From the NCBI GenBank assembly GCA_012862575.1, contig BLSF01000016.1:310001-374000 (forward strand): DNA of 64,000 bases. The letters are read 5' to 3'. Under the pieces are notes generated by a model. That model did not search any database. It was not told the origin of the DNA and worked only from the letters and a program-made list of their open reading frames with translations. Both the position numbers and the translations under genes were made by a program. This stretch comes from Parietichytrium sp. I65-24A (lineage: Eukaryota; Sar; Bigyra; Thraustochytrida; Thraustochytriidae). Shown in pieces: positions 13,037 to 62,782 of this stretch (its first letter is position 1; each line of letters begins with the position of its first letter).

Positions 13037-16000
13037 TTAGAACGACTTTTCTTTCAGGTCGAGCACTCCAGTCCAATTCACGTTATCCGTGACGGTCTCT
13101 CCATAAATCGCATGAGCCTCCTTGATGCGCTTGTCCAACAGCAGCGCTGCCTCATCCTTGACTTGCACTTTATCCAAGGCCCGCTGGGCGACCCCGAATT
13201 CGCCAGCTTCGAAGGAGTGCAAGGATTGCTCGTAAAGAGCAATCTTACTTTGTTCCTCCTCGCCCACGGCCGGTCCGATTGGATCAAAGTAGCTGAGAGT
13301 GTGGAAGACGGCGACACTGTCCAATGGCACACTGCTCGACTCTGACGATTCAGTGTTTTGCGAACCCGACTGCGCTGTGGTTGATGCTTTGCTCGGGCAG
13401 CAGCGCCACAATTGCCCACAGCACTCCAAATAGTGGTCCTGCTGCTTTGTTGCTAGTCTGCTACCAGGTCTGCTGGCCCCACCACCTACAGACTCCAAAT
13501 CATTGCTTTTGTACAGGCGATCGGTCATCCGCAGAGGCTCGTAGAGGCGCAACGCCTTGTTTTTGCCTTTCACTGCGACTTTGCCCAACTCACGAGTCAC
13601 GAAAGAATCTGGCAAGTTGGCCAGTGTGCTCTCAGAAATGATTGTTTTTGCGCCAAATAATTTACACAAAGCCTCGAGACCTGCGCCACGATTAACGATA
13701 TACAGTTAGCGGCCATCTCAATGTGCAAAGCCAAAAAAAAGAAAAAGTGGGGGGAATAGAGAGCAGCGAGCACTTTGAACTTACGCGAGGCAGTGTTCAC
13801 CGGATCCCCAATGCAGCCCCATTTCAGCTTGTCCGATGATCCCAAATTGCCAGTTAAGACCTCTCCGGTGTGAATGCCAATTCGAATAGCCAGATTCTTT
13901 TTGTACCCTGCTGCGACCAGTGTATCTTTGAACTCTTCGTGAATCGTTTTCACAACCTCGTGCTGAGACAACGCGCTCGCAACAGCAAGCGCCGCATGGT
14001 CGGCAACATCGTCTGGCGTGTTCCAGAATGCCAAAATCCCATCGCCTAGCACTTCCCCCACCACACCGCCGAAAGACTCGATGACCTTCGTCATGTGCGT
14101 AAAATACACCGTCAGCAGGTGGAGAATGTCCTTGTCAGAAAGAACCTCTGTGATGCTCGTAAAGTCGGCCAGGTCAGAAAAGAGGATGGTGACCTCCCTT
14201 TTGCAGACGTGCAACTGTCTCGCTTGGTTCAGGTTGTGAACAATATTGTAAACCACAGTTTTGGGTACGAATTTGACAAACACTCTCAGAGAGTTCTTGA
14301 CGGACAACATGGTCTCTTGGATGCCTCTAATCTCGTCGATGCGGGAGTGGTACATTGCCCCCTTAGAGAAATCAAGGTCCTGAATGCGCTTCATCGCCCT
14401 CTCCAGGCGAAGCAAAGGCCACGTGATCGCGAAGGACATGAAAACCGCGCAAATTACCGTGATGATGCAAATAGCAGCAGCGAGACCGAGCAACCAATAC
14501 AGCGTTTTGTCGGCGCTCTGAAACGACTCTTCTGTTGAGTTTTTCAGATTTTGCTGCGAAGTAGACAGCTGGTTGATGACGTCGCGCAAGAACAAATCCA
14601 CTGGTATAGCGAGAACTACCGCAAGTTCCAACTTCTCAAGTACGTTGATCGCAGAGCTACGACCGGATATGAGCGGCACGGCGATTACCAAAGTTCGGTT
14701 AGGATTCAAACACTCGTCCCCGGAGCAATCCTCTTTCTCGCAAATGCTATCTCCGTCTTCTGCGTTGATAGTGTCGCTCAAATCTATGATGCACTGCCAG
14801 GGACTCTCCAGGTATTTAGCCCAGCTGTCTGATTCACCCCACGGCACTTCGGAAATCAAAGCGCGAGCAGACTTTCGCACCACCAGATCCGAGGAGTTGG
14901 TGGCGTACTCTATTGAAGTTCTACTGCGCCGCGAACTGGACGTTGCAACCAGCGCCCCAAGGTGTTCGCTCGCTGGCGTGTTTTGGACAATATAGAGCAC
15001 CGCTTTCTCCTCTAGGACAGCGGTCAGATTCAAGCTCGGGTTACTAACTGAGATGGTTGAGTTGATCAGATATGCCAACTGATCATAACAAAACTGACTC
15101 ATTTTCGACACCTCCAAGTCCACGCCAATGACCCCCTCCAGGCAAGAATAGTTGGAGCAGGATGTTACCGGCCAGGTGAATGTCAAGCCCACCTCGCCTT
15201 CCGAAACGAAATAGTATATGTCGGACCAGACACCACCTAGTCCGCTAGCATTGGGCTGTTGACTTTGCCCCAGATACCACGGGCGGTTCACCCAGTCTAT
15301 AGGCTCAGACGAAGTCTCTAAAATATTTCCCCACACAGGTTGGAGGGTGTCGGAGTTCACTGCATATGTCACCGCGTGGGTGCCTGAAGGGGGCGTTGAG
15401 TTTGACGGCTCGGATTGCGTATAAGTAGACTTGTATGAGAGATTCTCGCCCTCCAGCTCGCCAAAGTAGCTTCCTACGAGCTCGTTCGACTCCCACCCAA
15501 CATAAATTCGCTCGAGGGTCTGCAGCATGTTACTTGCAATCAATCGCATCATGAATGGCGCGATACTTTGCTGCCAAGCGAGCGTCAAATTACTAGTGTT
15601 CTTGAAGGACGGGTTTCCAAAATACGTATTGGCCGTTTCATCAGGAAGATACGCCTCCACCAGGAGTCTGCTGCTCTGGACGCTTGTCCAGACTGATTGG
15701 GCAGCGAGCATGGCAAGATCTATTGTGTTTTCTTCGATCAATATTTTGACGCTCTCTATGGTGTCGAAGGTCATGGTCAATGACAGCCTGCTAAGACTGT
15801 TTGCAGTTGACTCTCGCGTCTCGTTTAGTTCCCCAAAAATCTGATCCTGAATATCGTTCAACGAGTTCCTCCATGCAAGTTGCGAAGGCACGACCAGAGC
15901 GATGGATAACAGAATGACGACCAGCACATCTGCCACAATGAGCGCATTGCGGAGCGAGAGACTGATGTTCATCCCAAACGTCTTTTTATATCCCTTTCTG

Positions 16001-16425
16001 TCCTCCTGGTCATCGTTCGTTTCCATCGTGGTGATCTCCTCGCTCCCGTTCAGATGCTTGCGCACTTTGCGCAGTAGGATAAGCTCCGTGAAGGCTTTCG
16101 ACCCAATGGACCGCCGTGTTGACGAATTCGACGAGGCAGACAAACCGGACATTCCCTGGTACACCGAGTCGCCGTCCTCGTCGCCCTCCGGCAGCATCTC
16201 ATTCAACTGCTGTCTCTGATAGCTCTCGTAGTAATTTTGCGACCGGTTCGAGCTCACGGAGTTTTGTCGCGAGTGTCCGTTCTGCACCTGGTTCTGTGAG
16301 CTCTGTACAGGAAGACCAGGCACCGGAAAAGCGCGGTCCCCGATCCGCGAGCGCACAAAGCTATTGATACTCGTTGTCCTCGGCGCCATCAGCTTTTGCG
16401 CCTCCAGGTCGTGCCCATTCTGCAT
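13037..16425 (-). CDS. Transmembrane class III nucleotide cyclase with large Cache-like ectodomain
   Basis: Receptor-type adenylate or guanylate cyclase. Exon 1 is 16425-13785 and exon 2 is 13680-13037 with a 104 nt intron; the split codon restores the conserved NTASRLE motif. The product is 1094 residues: Gln/Ser-rich cytosolic N-terminus (1-155), TM1 (about 160-182), ectodomain (about 185-640) that looks like a double Cache sensor and has many N-glycosylation sequons, TM2 (about 642-669), HAMP-like linker (about 670-715), catalytic domain (about 740-935) and a C-terminal tail. Metal ligands D751 and D795 and the transition-state residues N877 and R881 are present, so it should be active. 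The purine-selecting positions read E791 and G870. The Glu is as in guanylate cyclases, but the second position is neither Asp (AC) nor Cys (GC), so I leave the base specificity open. The single catalytic domain implies homodimerisation. Confidence 0.9.
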
Positions 16426-39952: not shown

Positions 39953-42149
39953 ATGGAGGGCGACGCTCTGCTGGCAAGTCCCCCGCGCGGCGCGGCGGCG
40001 GCGGCGAAGGAGGACGACAACGGTGGCNGCGGTGGCGCTGGGGTCGGTGGCGCTGGTGGCGCTGCGCGTGGCGCCGCGGGAGGACGGGGGTGCGCAGGCG
40101 CAGGCGCGGGCGGTGGCGGTGGGCGCGGCGTGCGCGTGGGGGTGCGCGCTGGTGGCGGTGTGGCTGGCCGCGGGCAGCGGACTGGCTCGCGCGTGGGAGA
40201 CGAGCGCCCGCGGCGCCGGAGCGTGCAGGCGGTCCGTGGCCGCGAGCAGCAAGGCGCTGCGAGGACCGGCAGAGCTGGTCCCCGGCGCAGCGGACGTGGC
40301 GCGGTTCCTTGGCGCGCAGTACGGCGCGGTGGAGAGCGTGCTGCTGCTCACGGACGGCGGAAGGCTCGCGCGGCTCAGGAGATTGAGGGCGCAGCTGGCC
40401 ACCGAGGACCGCACAGCGCGCGCCGTAGGGCTGGGGCTGGGGCTGGGGCGCGGCCGCGAGTATGAGTATGATCACGGGGCGCGCGGCCTGGCGGAGTGGG
40501 CGTGCTGTGCGGGCGTGAGGAGGGCGGCGCGCAGGGCGCGCAGGAGACGAGCCGAGCGGCGCGAGAGGTGGCTGGACAACTTGGACGAGGCCATCAGGGA
40601 CGAGCAGGACGTGGGCAGGGCGCCGGAGGGGCTCGGGTGCGCCATTGTCACGTTCGAGCGCGCGGAGGACGCCAGGGCCGCGCTTAGAGACGTGGTGGCG
40701 AGCGGGCCGGGCAGTGCTTGGGATGACCCCAGGGAAACCGTGCTGGGCGCTAGGCCCAGTGCGCCGTCGTCACCATCGTCAGTGGAGTTTGCAGACGACT
40801 TGCTTGACGAGGACTACGACGCTTGGGCGGCCGGCGGGATGGGGAGACCTGGCAGGGGAAATGGGAGCGCCGGCAGGTGGTCCAGGTGCTCACCACACGG
40901 TCAGGCGCATGCGAGATCCACCGACGATCCTGCGAAAGGGTGGTTTCTGGCGCCGGGAAATGAGAGCAAGTTGATGTTTGCACATGAGCGACTTTATGTC
41001 CGTCCAGCGCCGGAGTGCGACGACCTCGACTTTGAGGCACTACAACCAGCCTTTGACTTGCGCAATGCCTCTCGGGCACGACGATCCGCCATCGCGGTGA
41101 TGTCTGCCGTGGCTGCCGGATCTGGCATCGCCTACGGCATTGGGATCTCCATCCTTCTTGAACCATCGGCGTCGAGAGCCGCTTCGGGTTTTGCAACGGC
41201 CGCGCTTGTCACTGCCGGGGCTGCGGCGCTGTGGATCTGGACGCTTGGAGACAACTTTTTGCCCGACCGCCACACCGTCACCTATTCGATGCGGCAGCGT
41301 GAGGTCTTCGCTCGTGGCGCGCAACTAGTCTGTTTATTTTGGGTGTGTGCGTTGACCGTAGTGGTCGCCATCAGCCGTCATAATGCTGTCGTGTTGGCTG
41401 GGGCAACCATCCTGCATCAGGTTTGCGGAATCATCGCGACCATCACTCCCATGGGACGATTCACCCGTAGCTTTGGCACCAGGCAGGCCGCTGCCTCGTT
41501 CGCGCTAGGGTTTCTCAGTGCTGAGGCCTTCGCTAACTTTTCATGTGCGCTCATAATTGCCCCCTGGGTGCCGTACGTCCTGCCCTTCTCTAGCGCACTT
41601 CTTTTTGCCAAGGTAATCATTGAGCGCCATAAGCTTGAGGTAATGCGCGAGCCGATATCGCCAAGGTACGGTCCTGATGTTGCGCTTTGTGTGGTGGACT
41701 ACTTGCCTTTCGTGGCCCTTGCCTCATGCGCCATCCCAAGCGCCTTTGCCCTGTATAGCAGAAACTCCAACGCGAAGTTCTACTTGGATTTGGTCTGCGC
41801 CGTGCTGACGACTTTCTCCATGACGGTTCTCGCGCTCGGCTGGGGCCATCTGCGGCATTCCTGGCCGTTTGTGTACTCGTACCCTCCGTTGGAGTTTGAG
41901 CGCGATTACAATGGGGTGGAGTCGCATCCGCACGCGCGTGACCCACGTGACACACGTGAGGCTGCGTCGCCACAAGAGATAGATATCTCCTTTCAAGATC
42001 AGTCCGGAAAACAAAAGTATGCTTGGAACGCCGCTCCTACATCCGCACCGCTGGATGCCCTTCGCTCCATGCACGCAGAGGGGTATCTCCTTCCTGAATA
42101 CCATACCAAACCCCGTCCTGAACCAAGCCCAGTTCCTGACGTCCTTTGA
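39953..42149 (+). CDS. OSCA/TMEM63 (CSC1-like) mechanosensitive channel, interrupted by an assembly gap
   Basis: Probable osmo- or mechanosensitive cation channel. An N at 40028 lies about 25 codons into the gene. The ATG at 39953 (MEGDALLASPPRG) and the main frame (open to the stop at 42149, about 700 codons) are out of phase, so the gap must hide bases other than the single N. After the gap: TM0 (VALGSVALVALRV), TM1 and TM2 region, then a cytosolic domain with GCAIVTFERAEDARAAL (the conserved VTF patch), an acidic linker, RLYVRPAPECDDLDFEAL (counterpart of the APEPxDIxWxNL motif), and a block of about eight TM helices ending near WPFVYSYPPLEFE. The order agrees with the DUF4463/RSN1_7TM layout of the family. 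It is divergent in detail; a diverged TMEM63-like protein of other function is possible. The 5' part is extremely GC-rich, which would explain the gap. Confidence 0.62.
40028..40028. other. Assembly gap (single N) inside the channel gene
   Basis: Single ambiguous base within GC-rich repeats (GGTGGC/GGCGCTG). The reading frame differs on the two sides. Confidence 0.98.
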
Positions 42150-54462: not shown

Positions 54463-55055
54463 CTCTCTCCGCAACTCTCTGGCAACCTCTTTCCTCGCAA
54501 AGGCGGTCGTTGGCCTCGCGCTTGTCGAGCTTTTGTCTGTGCTGTCGGTCCTCTCTTCCCACTTCTGTATGCTTGTCTGCCTGTCTCTGCTTGCTGCTTG
54601 CTGCTTGCTGCTTTGTGGTTGCTGCTTTGTGGTTGCTGCTTTGTGGTTGCTGCTTTTGGGCTCCAAGTGTGGGTGGCGGAACGGGAGTCTATGCAAGGTT
54701 GTGCGGCCGAGTTTGCTGCTTGTTTTCCTTTCTCTTGAAAATGGGCTTGCGTTCTTGTTCTTGTTCTTGTTCTTGTTCTTGCGCCGCTTGCTTCCGCTTG
54801 CGAAGATAGAGCGTTTGTTGTTTGGAAAAAGAGCAGTGATCGAACAGACGACAAGCGGAAGAAAGGAAGAAAGGAGGGCGCTTTGCGAGGGCAAGCCAAT
54901 CGATATCATTGGTACAGTACAACATTTACGCAGCGTTACACGGTTCAAGTCAGAAGAAGTTGTTCAGGAGCAAGGTCACTTTTTGTCACAGTTGTCGCAG
55001 TCGGCGCCGCTCTGATAGGCACGAAGAGCACCGAGAGAATGCTTCCCGGCGATTC
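54463..55055. other. Spacer with two short tandem repeats
   Basis: A 14-bp unit CTTTGTGGTTGCTG repeated three times (54611-54652) and a TTCTTG hexamer run (about 54743-54781). No further gene seen. Confidence 0.65.
54611..54652 (+). repeat. 14-bp tandem repeat, three copies
   Basis: Exact copies at 54611-54624, 54625-54638 and 54639-54652, preceded by related TTGCTGC units. The unit is not a multiple of three, which argues that the open frame across it is not coding. Confidence 0.95.
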
Positions 55056-56579
55056 TCAGTTGCCAGTGCTTTTGTGCTGGCTTGTCGATCCTAAACCGGC
55101 AGCACTATCGTTTGCAACTTTGTATTTGGAATTCTGGCGGGACGGAGTGGCCACGCGAACGAGAAGAATGGCCGCCATGGCACGACTGACGTGAAACAAG
55201 AGCCAGCGTAGCTCCCAAGACGCAGGTGACGAGTACAATTGCTCTGATGCCATCGGCAACGTTGAAATTACGAGCACAAGGAGTCCTATTCCAGCATGTT
55301 GAATTCGGCGGCAGAGATCGAGCATGGCAAGGTCACTGTGACTTGGGGCAGTTGAGCTTGAAACCATTCCAGGGTTCGGGGACTTTCGCATTGTGCCAGT
55401 CACAAGCTTTGTGAATTTACGGGCTTGAATGATGAAAAAGGTGGCCAAAGTAATCTCCATGAGGAGAAGGATCGCTACTTCCACGACTTGAATCTCTACC
55501 AAGCGCACTGTCCGAGTCAGAATCAATGTGCTGGTGGTGAACGGTACCCCAATCATCATCAGCGCAATACTAACGAAAACAAAGCGGTACCGTGTGAGAA
55601 CCGAGCCTGTACTCGATTTGGATGCTCTTTTCTTCCACGAATTCGTAAAGTCCACCCACACAACCACTATAAATAACCCCGAGCCAACTGTTGGCCCGAG
55701 TAGTAGATCTGTGAAAGCATCCCTCCATAGCGAGCCAAAGTTGCCAGTTCCCCACCATCCCTCATATACAAGGATGAGAGTGAACGCGAATGATGCCAGG
55801 AGATTCGAAGCGCACGCCATCATCGGAACTGGAGCGCGTGCGCCGTTCCAATGAAGCTTCAAGCTTTGGACGCTCTTGTACACAATATATGCGTGAAGCG
55901 CTGGCACGAAAGACCTGAATACTATGGAATATTGCCACGAAGTGATCAGTGCTTTCATCGGGAGGTCGGCCTCCATTTTGAACGCCACCTCAATTTGCCC
56001 GCTCAGGGTTTCGTTCGTAAAGTGAGACTCCCAATTGGACGGGAAAGCGCACTCAAATACGTAAAAATCTTGCTTGAGGTATTCTGTTCGAGAGTAGCCC
56101 ATGTCATCCGTGTACCACAGTCCCAGAGAGTCGACATAGTTTGGCCAATCAAGAGCAACAATCAATCCAGATACATTTTTGTCCAGAAAAAAGTCCAAGA
56201 AGAGTCCAGAGTACACATCGAAGTCTATGCATGGATACCTTTGCCTCGTGCCGGCAGGATCTTCCCTGAGCAGTGTGTCCCAAATGATATTAGGCCATAA
56301 CACAACCTTTCCTTGGAGATCGGTTTCGCAAAACACTTCGGAGCTTATGTCTGTAACCACCTTGCTTTCGAACGATGCGCCATCCCACTGCTTCCCCCAA
56401 AACTTTGACGTAATTCCGCACTTTGCAGAGCCCTCCACGCCAGAGGGTGTGACAAGCTTTGTCTCCCCCACATCCGCCCCACTCTCCTCCAGGAATGCTG
56501 CTCCGACCTTGAGGGCAGACGCGCAATGCAAGTGTGCGACCGTGGCCACGACCAGCAAAGAGAAGCTTCTCTTCATCAC
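55056..56579 (-). CDS. Receptor-like 7TM protein with four-Cys ectodomain, paralogue 1
   Basis: A 507-residue single-exon protein of a family I do not recognise. Signal peptide about 1-22; ectodomain about 23-213 with four cysteines (C54, C84, C117, C177) conserved in all three paralogues and the motifs GSAKCGITSKFWG, KVVLWPNIIWD, YPCIDF, ALDWPNYVDSLGL and YTDDMGYSR; then seven predicted TM helices (about 214-236, 251-272, 291-312, 331-354, 363-385, 427-448, 456-478). Cytosolic loops 2 and 3 and the tail are Lys/Arg-rich (SWKKRASK, ARKFTKL, TPSRQNSK), so the topology is N-out, C-in, like a GPCR. The stretch KVVLWPN...VSGLIVALDW faintly resembles a protease-associated (PA) fold. The GOST family (GPR107/GPR180/Wntless type: secreted-fold domain plus 7TM) is the other comparison. 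Function, ligand and G-protein coupling are unknown. Confidence 0.8.
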   Translation of the reverse strand: MMKRSFSLLVVATVAHLHCASALKVGAAFLEESGADVGETKLVTPSGVEGSAKCGITSKFWGKQWDGASFESKVVTDISSEVFCETDLQGKVVLWPNIIWDTLLREDPAGTRQRYPCIDFDVYSGLFLDFFLDKNVSGLIVALDWPNYVDSLGLWYTDDMGYSRTEYLKQDFYVFECAFPSNWESHFTNETLSGQIEVAFKMEADLPMKALITSWQYSIVFRSFVPALHAYIVYKSVQSLKLHWNGARAPVPMMACASNLLASFAFTLILVYEGWWGTGNFGSLWRDAFTDLLLGPTVGSGLFIVVVWVDFTNSWKKRASKSSTGSVLTRYRFVFVSIALMMIGVPFTTSTLILTRTVRLVEIQVVEVAILLLMEITLATFFIIQARKFTKLVTGTMRKSPNPGMVSSSTAPSHSDLAMLDLCRRIQHAGIGLLVLVISTLPMASEQLYSSPASWELRWLLFHVSRAMAAILLVRVATPSRQNSKYKVANDSAAGLGSTSQHKSTGN

Positions 56580-57536
56580 GCTACGCTTCGCGCTTCATGT
56601 GCAATTCTGCTTTGCCGAGCCTTGCCATTTGACTTGCCCCCTCCCCCCAACCAACTTCTTGCTCTAGTTGTCACGATCTATTCCACGCTTATGCTGGCTG
56701 GCATGTGAGGGCACGAAAAGAGTTGGCATCCCTACCGCTCTCCAGACTCCTCCTCCCACGACAAGTCACTCAGTACACAGTGCAAGCGGAGCAGTTTATT
56801 CCTCCTTACTGTTAATGCGTTTCATGGCAAATCTAAATCTCCACAGCATCCATGTAATCACCATTATTACTATCCGTTCACCCGATACTTGCCGCCACGG
56901 CGGCCGCTACCTCGCAGTCGAGATCGTGACGCCAGTCGCTTTAGGTGTTATTTGACTATCGACGTGTTTGCGACTGACGCGCAACTATTCCATGTTATGG
57001 TTCAATGTTCAATGCTAACTCCACCATCGAGAATCGAGAGAGGTGTGCAGATTATTTCAGAGTGAGCCGAATGAAAAACGGACTCATCAAGCGACCTTAT
57101 GATTATGCTTAGAGGTCGCACTGTGGGTAGGAAGATCAAGTTCGGAGAAACGAACCAGCTGGTATGAAATTGGCGAGTTCGTGAAAGGGCGTTCGAGCTT
57201 TTGAGTCGGAGTAACAGAATATTAGAAAGCACAAGTTGCGTAGCGTGGCCATTCTCCAGTCTGAGAAAAGGCAGAACTCGCAGAAGGAAACGTTGAATTT
57301 GCTCCTTTTCATATATATTCCGCGTGACCTTTTCGCGCTCTTTAAAATACATGATAGGCAAAATCCGCACAAGAAAATGCTCCCTTTCATCCATTCATGT
57401 GCGCCTTTTTCTTGCGCTCTTTGAGAATGGTAGGCAAAAAGAACACAAAATAAGTTTCGCCAAAAGAAGACCAATTGCTTTCCGGTGCTATGTTTTTTAT
57501 TCCTTTTTTTATTTATCGGTTTGGCTCACGAGCGGC
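56580..57536. other. Spacer between 7TM paralogues 1 and 2
   Basis: About 960 bases with no supported gene; upstream region of paralogue 1 and 3' region of paralogue 2. Short frames at 57002-57474 (minus) are AT-rich and unconserved. Confidence 0.55.
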
Positions 57537-59075
57537 TTATTGTGTTTGATGACCGCTGGTCAACTCTTTGCTGACGACGTTCGTGTTCGTCATTCCTGAG
57601 GTCTTTGCATTCCTCTCCTGAGCCGAGTTAGCCGTTTGAACTCGCCGGCTTGCTCTTTTCGTGGGCGTTGCTACTTTCACGAACGCAAAAGATGCTGCAA
57701 CGCGACACGTGTGCAGGAATGTCCATCTCATCTCCCACTGAGCCGGAGTGCGATAAAGGTTGTCCGATGCCATCAGGATCGTCGAAAGCATCAGCATTGC
57801 AATCGAGTATCCAGCATAACGAATTCGAGTGCATCTATCGAGCATTGCCGTGTCCAATTTGCCACTTTGGCTTGCAGCTCCATTGGCAACGCTGTGTACA
57901 AGATGAGTAAATCGCCTTGCTTCGGTCACGAAGAAAATGGCAAGTAAGAGTTGAAAGCACAACAGTGTCGCCGCTAGAGTAATTTGTATGTCAACCAAGC
58001 GAACCGTCCTGGTCAATATACCAGCCACTGTCGAGAACGGAATTCCAATCATTACCGTCGCTACGGTGATGAAGAGCAAGCGGTACCTCGAGAGGATCGA
58101 TTTCGGCCTATTCGAACGAGACGCTCTTTTTCTCCACGAGTGAGTAAAATCCACCCAAACAATAACAATAAACAGTCCAGACCCAACGAGAGGGCTAATA
58201 AGAAGATTTGTGAATGAATCCCGGAGCAGAGACGGCAGATTTCCTGTCATCCACCATCCTTCGTACATGAGGACAGACCCTAGCACGACGGAGGTGAACA
58301 AATTTATCACTATCGCCATCATCGGTATGGCAGCTCTCTTTCTGTGGTCGAGATGGATGCGCAAGCCCTTGTAAGCCCTGACAATGACCATGAAATGTAA
58401 GAACGGGAGCAAGGTTCGGAAAATGAAGAAGTAATGCCAGGACCTCAGCATGACTCGCATAGCAAGATTGGGTTCCATGGTCAGGTCCATCTCGAGGTGA
58501 CCGCTCAGAGACTTGTTTTTAAATGCAGTCTCCCAGTTGGAAGGAAAAGCGCACTCGAACACGAAAAAATCTGCATTCTTGTACTTGCTCCGCGAATGTC
58601 CCATGTCATCAGTGTAAAGTAGACCGAGAGATAGAAGATAGTTTGGCCAGTCAACAGCAACAATCACGCCAGCCACATCCACATCCAAAAAGAAATCCAT
58701 GAAGAAGGGTGCGGAGCTGTCGAAGTCAATACATGGATAGTTTTGCTTTGTCAGTTCCGGCTCCTCCGCAAAATACACATCCCAAATGAGATTGGGCCAC
58801 AGCACAACTTTGTTGGTAAAATTTGTTTCGCAAAAGCTTGGAGAGCTTAGATCTGTCACAAGTGTGCTTATAAATTGTGACCCATCCCACTGACTTCCCC
58901 AGAACTTCGAGGTGATTCCGCACTTTGCCGACCCCGACACTCCTGACGGCCACAATACTTTGCTGCTGCCCAGCTCTGCCCCGCTTTCTTCCAGGAATGA
59001 GACTCCCTTGTCCAGGGCCTGTGCAGTGGCGAACTGCCAGATCAATGCCGTGGTGGCCAGCAGCTTCCCGGCCAT
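57537..59075 (-). CDS. Receptor-like 7TM protein with four-Cys ectodomain, paralogue 2
   Basis: A 512-residue tandem paralogue in the same orientation as its neighbours. I start at the Met at 59075 because MAGKLLATTALIWQFATA is a good signal peptide placed like those of the other two copies; the frame itself runs up to 59180. It shares the four ectodomain cysteines and the motifs GSAKCGITSKFWG, KVVLWPNLIWD, YPCIDFD, DWPNYLLSLGL and YTDDMGHSR, then seven TM helices with EGWWMTGN, GSGLFIVIVWVDF, GILTRTVRLVDIQ and the end motif KVATP after TM7. The basic second cytosolic loop (SWRKRASRS) and Ser/Thr-rich tail suggest regulation by phosphorylation. The membrane half is closer to paralogue 1 than to paralogue 3. 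No frame damage is seen. Confidence 0.8.
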   Translation of the reverse strand: MAGKLLATTALIWQFATAQALDKGVSFLEESGAELGSSKVLWPSGVSGSAKCGITSKFWGSQWDGSQFISTLVTDLSSPSFCETNFTNKVVLWPNLIWDVYFAEEPELTKQNYPCIDFDSSAPFFMDFFLDVDVAGVIVAVDWPNYLLSLGLLYTDDMGHSRSKYKNADFFVFECAFPSNWETAFKNKSLSGHLEMDLTMEPNLAMRVMLRSWHYFFIFRTLLPFLHFMVIVRAYKGLRIHLDHRKRAAIPMMAIVINLFTSVVLGSVLMYEGWWMTGNLPSLLRDSFTNLLISPLVGSGLFIVIVWVDFTHSWRKRASRSNRPKSILSRYRLLFITVATVMIGIPFSTVAGILTRTVRLVDIQITLAATLLCFQLLLAIFFVTEARRFTHLVHSVANGAASQSGKLDTAMLDRCTRIRYAGYSIAMLMLSTILMASDNLYRTPAQWEMRWTFLHTCRVAASFAFVKVATPTKRASRRVQTANSAQERNAKTSGMTNTNVVSKELTSGHQTQ

Positions 59076-59828
59076 GGCGCGGGCCGAGGACACACACAAG
59101 GACGGACCCGACGCAACGCGATGCGCTGTTGGCGTGTGAACAACAACAGCTACAAAACCAACTACAACAACAATTTTCACGATGCGCCAGAAACTTATCG
59201 CCTAGCGTTGGCCTTTATTGAATGAACTACCCTTGCACCAGGAAAAACTCTAAAAGATGCCGTTGAAATGCACTTGCGACACTCGTACGTATCCATTCGC
59301 ACTGGGCGTTTTTAATAATTCATTGCATCCTTTGGCTGGTACCACGGAAATCTCGAGCGCTGGCTAGAATCCCACCTGGCCAAATGTTTCCTTCTCCTTC
59401 GAAGCCACAGGAGGAGGGGGAAAAGAGCCTTGCGTGTTCTTGTTGCACTTCTCAAATACTCAAAATTTGGTCACTCTAACCTTCGCGATGGTCATCTCAT
59501 ACTTGCTTGAGTTCGCTGCGGTCCACAGCTACGAATACTCAACTTTTCGCCCATCCTACCTCAATGCCATAGCGCCAATTTTGCAGTGTTAGCAAACAAT
59601 GGTGACCTGTGGTAATCCCTGCCACCAACCCAACGGCTCACTCCGAAGTGGAGGAAGCCTGCCTCGAGGCTCAGAACAGGAAGATGTTTGGTTTGAAGAG
59701 CTGCTCTTTACGTTATGATCAAGATCAATCTGATGGAAGGATAGAGTCTACCGAGGGTTCACTCCAACGAAGGATAAATACGTGAATTTTTGGCGACGCG
59801 GGTGAATGATTTGGTTCTTGTCAGAAAC
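59076..59828. other. Spacer between 7TM paralogues 2 and 3
   Basis: About 750 bases, no supported gene and no obvious repeat. Confidence 0.6.
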
Positions 59829-61391
59829 CTATTCTTTTAGGGAGTTTGTCGACATCATGGATGATGCTGAACTAGCGTTTCCTACGGAAATATTCTCTTT
59901 TACTGTCTGAGTCGCGCTTTCCTGGAGGGTTTCGTAAGCCACTTTGGTTTTTTTCTTCCTTTTTGTTGAACCAGAATGCGGTGTCGCAACTCTGATGATG
60001 AAATATGACGCAAGCAACCTGCTAAAGTTATATTGGAACCAGAAAATCTCCCAACCAAGGGGCCACTGGAACATGAGTCCGTCAACTGCGAGAAACAATG
60101 TGGAGATGATCAGGTAGACGATCACAAACCCTGTCTGACGTATTTTTCGACACGCTGCGAGCATGGCTTCATCAGCTGCATTGGTGGAGCGAAGAGCGGA
60201 GCTTGCGCGTACGACAGAAAGCACAAGCGATGTGAACTTGCGAGATTGCGTGAAAAAAAATACCGCAAGGACGAGCTCCAATAACAACATGAGGCCTGTG
60301 AGAGCCTCGGTCATGTCGACTACCCGCACGGTTCTCGTCAAGATTAAAGTGGTTGTCGTGGTTGGGGATGCGAACATCAAGCACCCGATAAACACAATCA
60401 AGGGCCTCTTCCTTGTTACGATTGAGGCTTTCGAATCCTTGGCTTTCGCCGAACGCCACTGAGTGGTAAAATCAGTCCACACCAATACTATGAACAATCC
60501 TGAGCCCATGAGGGGACCTAAGAGCACATCTGTCATTGCATCCCGGAACAATGAGTTATAGTTGCCTGTATTCCACCACCCTTCATATGCCAAGATGAAT
60601 CCAAGCACAACTGATGTGCAAATATTTATGAAGATTGCGAGCATGGGCAGAATTGGCTTCTGCGCCTTCCAGTGACGAAGCAACGACTGTAAGCCAGTCC
60701 AGATCACAACGCAGTGCATTATTGGGAGAACAATGCGAAATAAAAAGCCGTATTGCCAAGAGGTGATCTGAACTCTCATTGGAAGATCTTCTTCCATGAC
60801 GAAAGACAGTTCAACCACTCCGCTCAGAGCAGGGTCTGATAATGAAGTACTCCAGTTTTCTGGAAACGCGCACTCAAAGACTACAAAGTCTTGGCTTAGA
60901 AATTTGGTGCGAGAGTAGCCAAAGTCATCCGTGTACAAAAGCCCAAGCGAGTCAACGAAATTTGGCCAGTCCAACGCCACGATGACTCCGCTCACATTTT
61001 TGTCCATAAAGTACTCCAAAAAAAACTTTGTGAAGTCTATGCAAGGATATTGAGCTTGGGTGTTCTCAGGATCACTCGCGTATGAATCGTCCCAGATCTC
61101 GTTAGGCCACAAAACGACTTTGCCGCTCCAGTCTGTCTTGCAGAATTCTTCAGAGCTCATGTCGGTCAATACAGTGCTCTGAAACGTATAGCCATCCTCT
61201 TGTCGACCCCAAAACTTGGAGGAGATCCCGCATTTTGCCGACCCTTCCACGCCTGTTAGCGTTGTTTTGCCAAGACTCTCGCCACTCGGATGCAGGAACT
61301 GAGTTCCTGCGTTCGCTTCGCAGGAGGCAAACAGAGCAGCGGCAAGTACTATTGCAACGAGGCCAGATGAGAGACCTCTCGGGGACGCCAT
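59829..61391 (-). CDS. Receptor-like 7TM protein with four-Cys ectodomain, paralogue 3
   Basis: A 520-residue third member of the array. Start at 61391 gives the signal peptide MASPRGLSSGLVAIVLAAAL; the frame extends 13 codons further to 61430. Same ectodomain cysteines and motifs (GSAKCGISSKFWG, KVVLWPNEIWD, YPCIDF, ALDWPNFVDSLGL, YTDDFGYSR) with a 3-residue deletion after YPCIDF relative to the others. Seven TM helices follow with EGWWNTGN, GSGLFIVLVWTDF and LILTRTVRVVD, then RVATP after TM7. The tail is longer (about 45 residues), with a KRKKKTK basic patch and then Ser/Thr-rich sequence. It is the most diverged copy in the membrane part, so it may be functionally distinct. Divergent from the STAND ATPase gene, 1.4 kb away. 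Confidence 0.8.
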   Translation of the reverse strand: MASPRGLSSGLVAIVLAAALFASCEANAGTQFLHPSGESLGKTTLTGVEGSAKCGISSKFWGRQEDGYTFQSTVLTDMSSEEFCKTDWSGKVVLWPNEIWDDSYASDPENTQAQYPCIDFTKFFLEYFMDKNVSGVIVALDWPNFVDSLGLLYTDDFGYSRTKFLSQDFVVFECAFPENWSTSLSDPALSGVVELSFVMEEDLPMRVQITSWQYGFLFRIVLPIMHCVVIWTGLQSLLRHWKAQKPILPMLAIFINICTSVVLGFILAYEGWWNTGNYNSLFRDAMTDVLLGPLMGSGLFIVLVWTDFTTQWRSAKAKDSKASIVTRKRPLIVFIGCLMFASPTTTTTLILTRTVRVVDMTEALTGLMLLLELVLAVFFFTQSRKFTSLVLSVVRASSALRSTNAADEAMLAACRKIRQTGFVIVYLIISTLFLAVDGLMFQWPLGWEIFWFQYNFSRLLASYFIIRVATPHSGSTKRKKKTKVAYETLQESATQTVKENISVGNASSASSMMSTNSLKE

Positions 61392-62782
61392 CCCCGATGC
61401 CCTGGAACTATCACAGCAAGCACCACGCAATCGGTCTGCTCTGCCTCAGCAGCGCTGCTGCCTGCCCAAGTGCAACAGCTGCTCGACCGGTGCCCGGTCG
61501 GCGCACCCTATTCTTTTCGCGAACTAGTTTCACAGATTAATCGCATTAACAGCGAGTACGATCTTGAGTTTGTATGAGTCGCCTCAAAGCGACCTGATAT
61601 GACCTGACGGTCGCTTCATTTCAGTTTCTAGCCATGCGTTCCAATCGTGTGATGCCTTTTTGAGGTGGCTGAAAAGGCACTTCAAGTCTTGATTGACATG
61701 AGAAACTGCCACATCACAATGTACATTGCCAGATCTTGATAGCATGAAACGTCTCTAGCCAAAAAGTTGAATTCACCTTATTTCGCGACAAACAATGTAC
61801 CAGATAATAGGAGCCTTCCCAGTGTCACGGACTGAGAAATTTCTCTCGGCTGTATGCTCGCCACACAAAGAAAGAAAAAAAGAAAGACTCTCTTTGACAC
61901 ACACTGGTAACCCTAGTCAATGCAGCAGCAGCTGTGAGCTGACCGCAATTTCAGCTCTTGACTCGAAAACCGGATTCACGTCCTGCAAGCAAAACTGATT
62001 GTGAGGGTCTGGTCTCTGTGGCCGTTGGGAACTGAACGGAATTGTTGCGACCGTCACTGTCAATGCACAACGCTTCCGATCATCTAACAAGCCGAGTTAA
62101 GCATAGTACCCAGTCTGTACACTAACTGTAGAGCAGTACCAGTAGCGGTTCACGTGTGCTCGTATGCGATTCTGATTTTTTCCCTTCCTGCTGTTCCCTC
62201 CGCTACAGTAAAGTACTAAGTCATTACAGGTACTGGTACTGACTGTGTAAAATTCTGCTGCTAGCTGCTAGCTACTAATAACATTAATAATGACAATGTA
62301 GCAGTCATTGATGATAACGTTTCGTTGAACACGTTCAACAGCTTGAACATGTTCCAATGAACATGTTCTTTGAGTGAGAAGTGTAGGGGAAGTTGAATGT
62401 TGATAACAAGGAGGTGCAAAGAGAGCGAGTCAGAGTGTGCCAAGCCCGAGAATCGCGCCACTAGCTTTCGTGCAGAGACATATTCTGACAAGTTGGAGAG
62501 GCGCAATCTAATGTTTGTGGATTGTCGATTGTGAATTGGGTGTGGATTGTAAATTGTGAAACTTCGAGCGCGGGATTCCGCGCGAGTTAAGTCTGTAGCC
62601 ACGAGCACAGGCGAGCAGCTGCACACTCGGCGGCTTCGGAAGTGCGTAAAGGGTCTCCAGAGAACGAATGCCGCTACAGGGGTCTCTGGGAAAGCTCGGC
62701 TAGGCCAAGGAAAGCGGGACACATGGCATTGGCGTGGGAGGGCAAGCAGTGAGCCGCGATCCGGCTTTATTGACTGCCAGGG
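61392..62782. promoter_or_regulatory. Divergent intergenic region between 7TM paralogue 3 and the STAND ATPase
   Basis: 1.4 kb with no supported gene; it must hold both promoters. It includes a cluster of three GAACRYGTTC palindromes (62327-62368). An open frame on the minus strand (62261-62839, 192 codons) overlaps the ATPase start and looks accidental. Confidence 0.5.
62327..62368. promoter_or_regulatory. Cluster of three GAACRYGTTC palindromic elements
   Basis: GAACACGTTC at 62327-62336 (inside a longer GTTGAAC/GTTCAAC inverted repeat, 62324-62339), then the perfect palindrome GAACATGTTC twice, at 62345-62354 and 62359-62368. Three near-identical 10-bp palindromes within 42 bases of an upstream region look like binding sites for a dimeric regulator. 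Which of the two flanking genes they serve is not clear; they are about 415 bases from the ATPase start. Confidence 0.5.

Follow-up and report, generated by a model that had tools for sequence, protein, structure and literature searches.

A lineage-expanded family of candidate GPCR-type surface receptors in the thraustochytrid Parietichytrium sp. I65-24A

Three neighbouring genes in the window, the name used here for the whole analysed stretch of 64,000 nucleotides, belong to a protein family with at least 31 places (E <= 0.01) in the home assembly of 42.5 Mb and 172 contigs. This family is best explained, with a probability of roughly 60%, as an unnamed, lineage-expanded set of GPCR-type cell-surface receptors. 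Its role is probably chemosensory, and nothing points in particular to adhesion, which the preliminary description had named as the other option.

The first gene, R1 (55056..56576, minus strand), encodes 506 aa with a signal-like N-terminus, an ectodomain (55941..56510, minus strand; about residues 23-212, with the cysteines C83, C116, C53 and C176) and a seven-helix region (55149..55937, minus strand; about residues 214-476). Its paralogues R2 (57537..59075, minus strand, 512 aa) and R3 (59829..61391, minus strand, 520 aa) share 51% and 50% identity with R1, the spacing being 960 bases between R1 and R2 and 753 bases between R2 and R3. Adjacency on a single strand, in one tandem cluster of receptor-like 7TM genes, is thus as first proposed. 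The three genes read from the sequence as ATG-to-stop frames without internal stops, and on this reading of open frames they are putatively intronless, as first described. The longest frame, R3 with 520 aa, is far longer than any that arose by chance in 300 Markov-1 resamplings of positions 54901-61600, where frames did not exceed 259 aa. Identity between R1 and R2 at codon positions 1, 2 and 3 is 0.57, 0.73 and 0.39, and NG86 dS is saturated, with no value obtainable, in all three pairs; since position 3 falls far below position 2 and dS is saturated, the trio is regarded as a set of old duplicates under constraint at the protein level.

The tandem array of three described initially is real, but it is a small part of a far larger family. 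The home genome was queried with R1, then with the C110 member and six divergent members (P0010, P0007, P0009, P0008, C114 and C32); the last three queries brought no new place and only the best candidates were scored, so that 31 is a lower bound. Single open frames account for 28 of these places, and three are split (C14, C6 and C42), by an intron or by decay. Full-length members form clusters of nine (C63), five (C111), three (C16), two (C14) and two (C33), and occur singly in C9, C90, C32, C87, C22, C114 and C110. A maximum-likelihood tree built from 28 7TM parts, in which several deeper forks are weak and long branches were flagged, shows every one of the five clusters that hold at least two full-length members as monophyletic, with support of 82/97 for the C111 clade and 98/97 or better for the other four.

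Residue conservation was counted over 27 members in R1 numbering, L083 being left out. The family-wide marks are C83 and C116 (26/27 each) and R465 in TM7 (25/27), followed by N258, G294, D345 in TM4 and P478 after TM7 (24/27 each) and by W307 (23/27); the D345 column holds proline in R1, R2 and R3. Four ectodomain cysteines had been called invariant, and C53, C83, C116 and C176 are so in the trio, but only C83 and C116 persist across the family, C53 being limited to the three window genes and the C176 column being cysteine in 4/27. Likewise, the five motifs that had been taken to define the family are invariant in R1-R3 but confined to the window subfamily. A retinal-binding rhodopsin was rejected, as the TM7 core (460-472) has no lysine in 26 of the 27 members. 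Within clusters, identity in the ectodomain and in the 7TM part is 61% and 46% in the window trio (ectodomain higher in 3/3 pairs), 37% and 39% in C63 (17/36), 29% and 37% in C111 (0/10), and 25% and 33% in C14 (0/1). From this contrast, which comprises few pairs, it is suggested that the window trio may share a ligand and that C111 may be diversifying.

The layout of these proteins is a hydrophobic N-terminus, signal-like by its hydropathy, then an acidic ectodomain of about 190 residues and then seven hydrophobic segments. Mean hydropathy over the 27 members peaks at the positions of the seven helices of the R1 model, the seventh weakly, and further peaks lie at N-terminal residues 2-20 and at 144-148 within the ectodomain. 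When sequences were scored one by one at a single threshold, fewer than seven segments came out in some of the 27 members, and in a few there was an additional one in the ectodomain. Mean net charge (n=27) is +2.9 in ICL1, +3.8 in ICL2, +3.8 in ICL3 and +2.9 in the C-tail on the inside, and -0.9 in ECL1, +0.1 in ECL2, -0.1 in ECL3 and -12.9 in the ectodomain on the outside; these averages place the N-terminus outside and the C-terminus inside. Of the N-glycosylation sequons, 82 fall within ectodomains and 33 elsewhere. The AlphaFold model of R1, built from the three window proteins, is of low confidence (mean pLDDT 42.3, pTM 0.41) and has helices at 214-245, 249-275, 280-318, 326-354, 359-397, 413-443 and 451-476. 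Hydropathy, weak at the seventh helix, loop charges and model helices agree with the seven-helix layout and orientation given in the preliminary description, and the predicted structure, which it had named as a check, contains the seven helices at a pLDDT of 42.3. With equally low confidence, the modelled ectodomain has strands at 52-59, 72-76, 92-94, 137-143, 171-177 and 194-198 and helices at 102-112, 124-133 and 180-186. Foldseek gave 884 matches to the R1 model at E <= 10, none of them at E <= 0.001, the best being sphingosine 1-phosphate receptor 3 (E 1.6e-3); the best 50 of the 884 comprise 46 GPCRs, two designed GPCR-like proteins and two fumarate lyases. Since Foldseek output for a model of such low confidence carries a warning that it has no meaning, these GPCR matches are taken as supportive at most.

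Pfam yielded no convincing family for the 27 whole proteins (best E 0.022, one member) or for the 27 ectodomains (best E 0.013, one member). The earlier statement that the family fits no named GPCR class holds as far as Pfam goes, and the Pfam results contain no confident full-length match to a described family, which had been named as its refutation. Profile searches of the PDB matched the designed transmembrane protein TMHC2_E (E 8.8e-5, 0.014 and 0.001), which is read as generic helix similarity, every other match having E > 0.2. GPCR classes other than class C, compared through Pfam alone, gave no convincing match. Viral contigs and prokaryote genomes queried with the window trio alignment, and phages queried with R3 alone, contained no relatives; viral, phage or prokaryotic kinship was set aside on these queries with window proteins. 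The titles and abstract openings of the open-licence papers that literature searches listed do not describe the family, and an account may exist elsewhere.

An affinity absent from the preliminary description is weakly suggested by profile comparison: TM3-TM5 may be related to class C GPCRs. When the 7TM part of 27 members was compared with 12 class C 7TM domains from the home genome, the score was 33.0 (hhalign probability 32.5%), in an alignment that spans TM3-TM5 in order; the reversed controls reached 20.3 and 15.9, and decoys no more than 20.1 (n=60) and 22.9 (n=40). With 28 members and 12 class C domains the score was 32.6, above every one of 200 local-shuffle decoys, the best of which reached 28.3; against a set of 16 class C domains it fell to 27.6, a level attained by 3/200 decoys, and the two halves of the class C set gave 31.1 and 22.6. 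The probability assigned by hhalign itself ranged from 10.7 to 39.7% across comparisons. Among six member subsets, with 10 decoys each, the score (decoy maximum) was 19.3 (18.3) for the window trio, 27.3 (25.5) for C63, 20.0 (23.6) for C111 with C87, 15.4 (21.7) for C33/C90/C32/C22, 15.1 (16.0) for C14 and 28.7 (22.6) for all members minus the window.

These scores bear on the strongest alternative, which we consider possible but doubtful: that the family is a divergent branch of the class C GPCRs, with a small ectodomain acquired and the Venus flytrap lost, and so is not a separate class. It is favoured by scores that beat most decoys with TM3-TM5 in order, which GOST, the only other 7TM family compared, does not achieve, and by the great expansion of class C in the home genome, where 82 class C 7TM matches were found, 81 of them over the cut-off and some being pieces of one gene. 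The class C hallmarks named in PMC3727952 include a cysteine pair, a PK motif in TM7, a basic TM3 end and, on the cytoplasmic side of TM6, an acidic residue. A lysine or arginine at the cytoplasmic end of TM3 (residues 308-318) occurs at least once in 26/27 members and is in keeping with such a branch, although any positive-inside loop gives the same. Against it stand the absence of Pfam 7tm_3 at E <= 1 in all 27 members, of the TM7 PK motif in all 27, and of the ECL1/TM3-ECL2 cysteine pair, for which both regions hold cysteine in 1/27. HMMER comparison of the family with the class C set, in both directions, gave nothing below E 0.07, the score of 27.6 with 16 class C sequences is within reach of decoys, and no class C structure is found among the best 50 of the 884 Foldseek matches. 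No Pfam match to a Venus flytrap was found, and the ectodomain is just about 190 aa long. The mechanism of such a branch would overlap with that of the best explanation; the descent differs.

The ectodomain had been thought PA-like or GOST-like. Against 13 PA domains it scored 22.3 over a short stretch of 39 aligned columns (probability 9.4%), a value reached by none of 200 decoys (maximum 16.3). By subset, the score (decoy maximum) was 16.3 (16.0, from 25 decoys) for the window trio, 16.9 (18.1) for C63, 25.4 (18.0) for C111, 18.8 (14.7) for the C33 group and 20.9 (14.3) for all minus the window. In a PA-profile HMM search, however, the family did not rise above shuffled letters, the top scorer being a shuffle, and the Pfam scan gave no PA (PF02225) match in the ectodomains; the PA-like reading has the element order and the hhalign score in its favour and the HMM search against it. 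GOST membership was rejected, and the GOST-like reading is not supported: GOST_TM (PF06814) has no Pfam match, and the 7TM part scored 12.8 against three GOST domains, within the decoy range (maximum 19.4, n=40). The same result weakens the proposal that these are secretory-pathway 7TM receptors or sorting proteins with a luminal ectodomain, of GOST or vacuolar-sorting type, rather than surface sensors. GOST proteins likewise combine a signal peptide, a luminal domain and 7TM, and the genome has four GOST matches, three over the cut-off, but the at least 31 mostly tandem places of the family are unlike these four, and we regard the proposal as improbable. A seven-helix transporter, channel or membrane enzyme with a small outer domain, which the conserved polar intramembrane residues N258, D345, Q374 and R465 would suit, is similarly unlikely, given the lack of a convincing Pfam family and that 48 of the best 50 of 884 Foldseek matches, though of a low-confidence model, are GPCRs or GPCR-like.

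GPCR-type sensing is favoured by the signalling context. G-alpha proteins are present in the home genome with 24 matches, 17 over the cut-off, read as about 13 loci, of which one has stops inside. An enrichment of G-protein and class C GPCR domains in thraustochytrids is reported in PMC6050695. Chemotaxis of thraustochytrid zoospores is the subject of a study in the reference list of PMC12221091. For a GPCR-type surface receptor the following mechanism can be proposed. The signal-like N-terminus would export the acidic, sequon-rich alpha/beta ectodomain of about 190 residues to the cell exterior, where it would be pinned by a C83-C116 disulfide and, in the window subfamily, by a second one, C53-C176. 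The ectodomain, perhaps PA-like, would bind a ligand or partner, and binding would be passed directly into a seven-helix bundle of distant class C kinship, without a Venus flytrap or a cysteine-rich linker; the basic intracellular loops would then couple to one of the G-alpha proteins of the organism. Tandem duplication would have produced cluster-specific receptors, each for different cues.

A further step, which we put forward tentatively and at somewhat less than even odds, is that the family constitutes a GPCR class not described before, in which a small disulfide-pinned, perhaps PA-type, sensor sits directly on the 7TM bundle, and which in this lineage has radiated in tandem into a second chemosensory repertoire beside class C. 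Little is known of how food and surfaces are sensed by single-celled heterotrophs that have swimming stages, and some 30 mostly tandem surface receptors missed by domain annotation would be a natural candidate set for such sensing; the family could also reveal how a small sensor domain drives a GPCR bundle.

Among known systems, the class C GPCRs (7tm_3, PF00003; including the stramenopile GABA-B-like receptors) share with the family an extracellular domain followed by seven helices, the weak profile similarity over TM3-TM5 and the same genome; they differ in the Pfam match, the ECL cysteine pair, the TM7 PK motif and the Venus flytrap, all missing in the family, and in size, the family measuring about 480-550 aa whereas many class C matches of the home genome lie in frames of at least 800 aa. 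PA-domain membrane proteins (PF02225) have a compatible element order, with a GKVVL-type strand after a cysteine, but carry one or nine helices where the family has seven. GOST proteins (PF06814) resemble it in signal peptide, compact N-terminal domain and 7TM, and differ by the lack of profile similarity, in the comparison with three GOST domains, and by the GOLD domain, an all-beta sandwich, whereas the low-confidence model gives the family ectodomain a predicted alpha/beta order. Hi-GOLD proteins have the same three-part layout, a likeness of description taken from PMC12716839. The protist RSF receptors, in the description given in the same paper (PMC12716839), are 7TM proteins without additional domains and are set apart by this description rather than by sequence; together with GPRch1-3 they share with the present family a 7TM architecture outside the known GPCR classes.

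In the three tandem paralogues of the 7TM receptor-like family (window 55056-61391, minus strand), the 7TM parts are less alike than the N-terminal ectodomains in all three pairwise comparisons, while the opposite is observed in the cluster of five full-length members on contig C111 of the home genome assembly, where the 7TM parts are the more alike in 10/10 pairs. Position 345 in TM4 (numbering of the first paralogue, R1) is occupied by Pro in each of the three window genes, and by Asp in the 24 other aligned members (24/24). Three further paralogues are split over two frames (C14:310562-312224, C6:538788-540650 and C42:235711-237596), which may reflect either introns or decay.

Elsewhere in the window, a 942-aa frame (13597-16425) carries a Guanylate_cyc domain (Pfam E 6e-17), and at 40001-42149 the 2 kb bin richest in GC (0.654) is overlapped by a 436-aa frame for which no Pfam match was found. 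Six G-alpha pieces, three per strand, lie within 9 kb on another contig of the assembly (C45:94234-103090), perhaps representing a pair or more of intron-containing genes. Genome-wide, the class C 7TM profile (PF00003) gave 82 matches, 81 of them over the cut-off, and the predicted class C repertoire is large.
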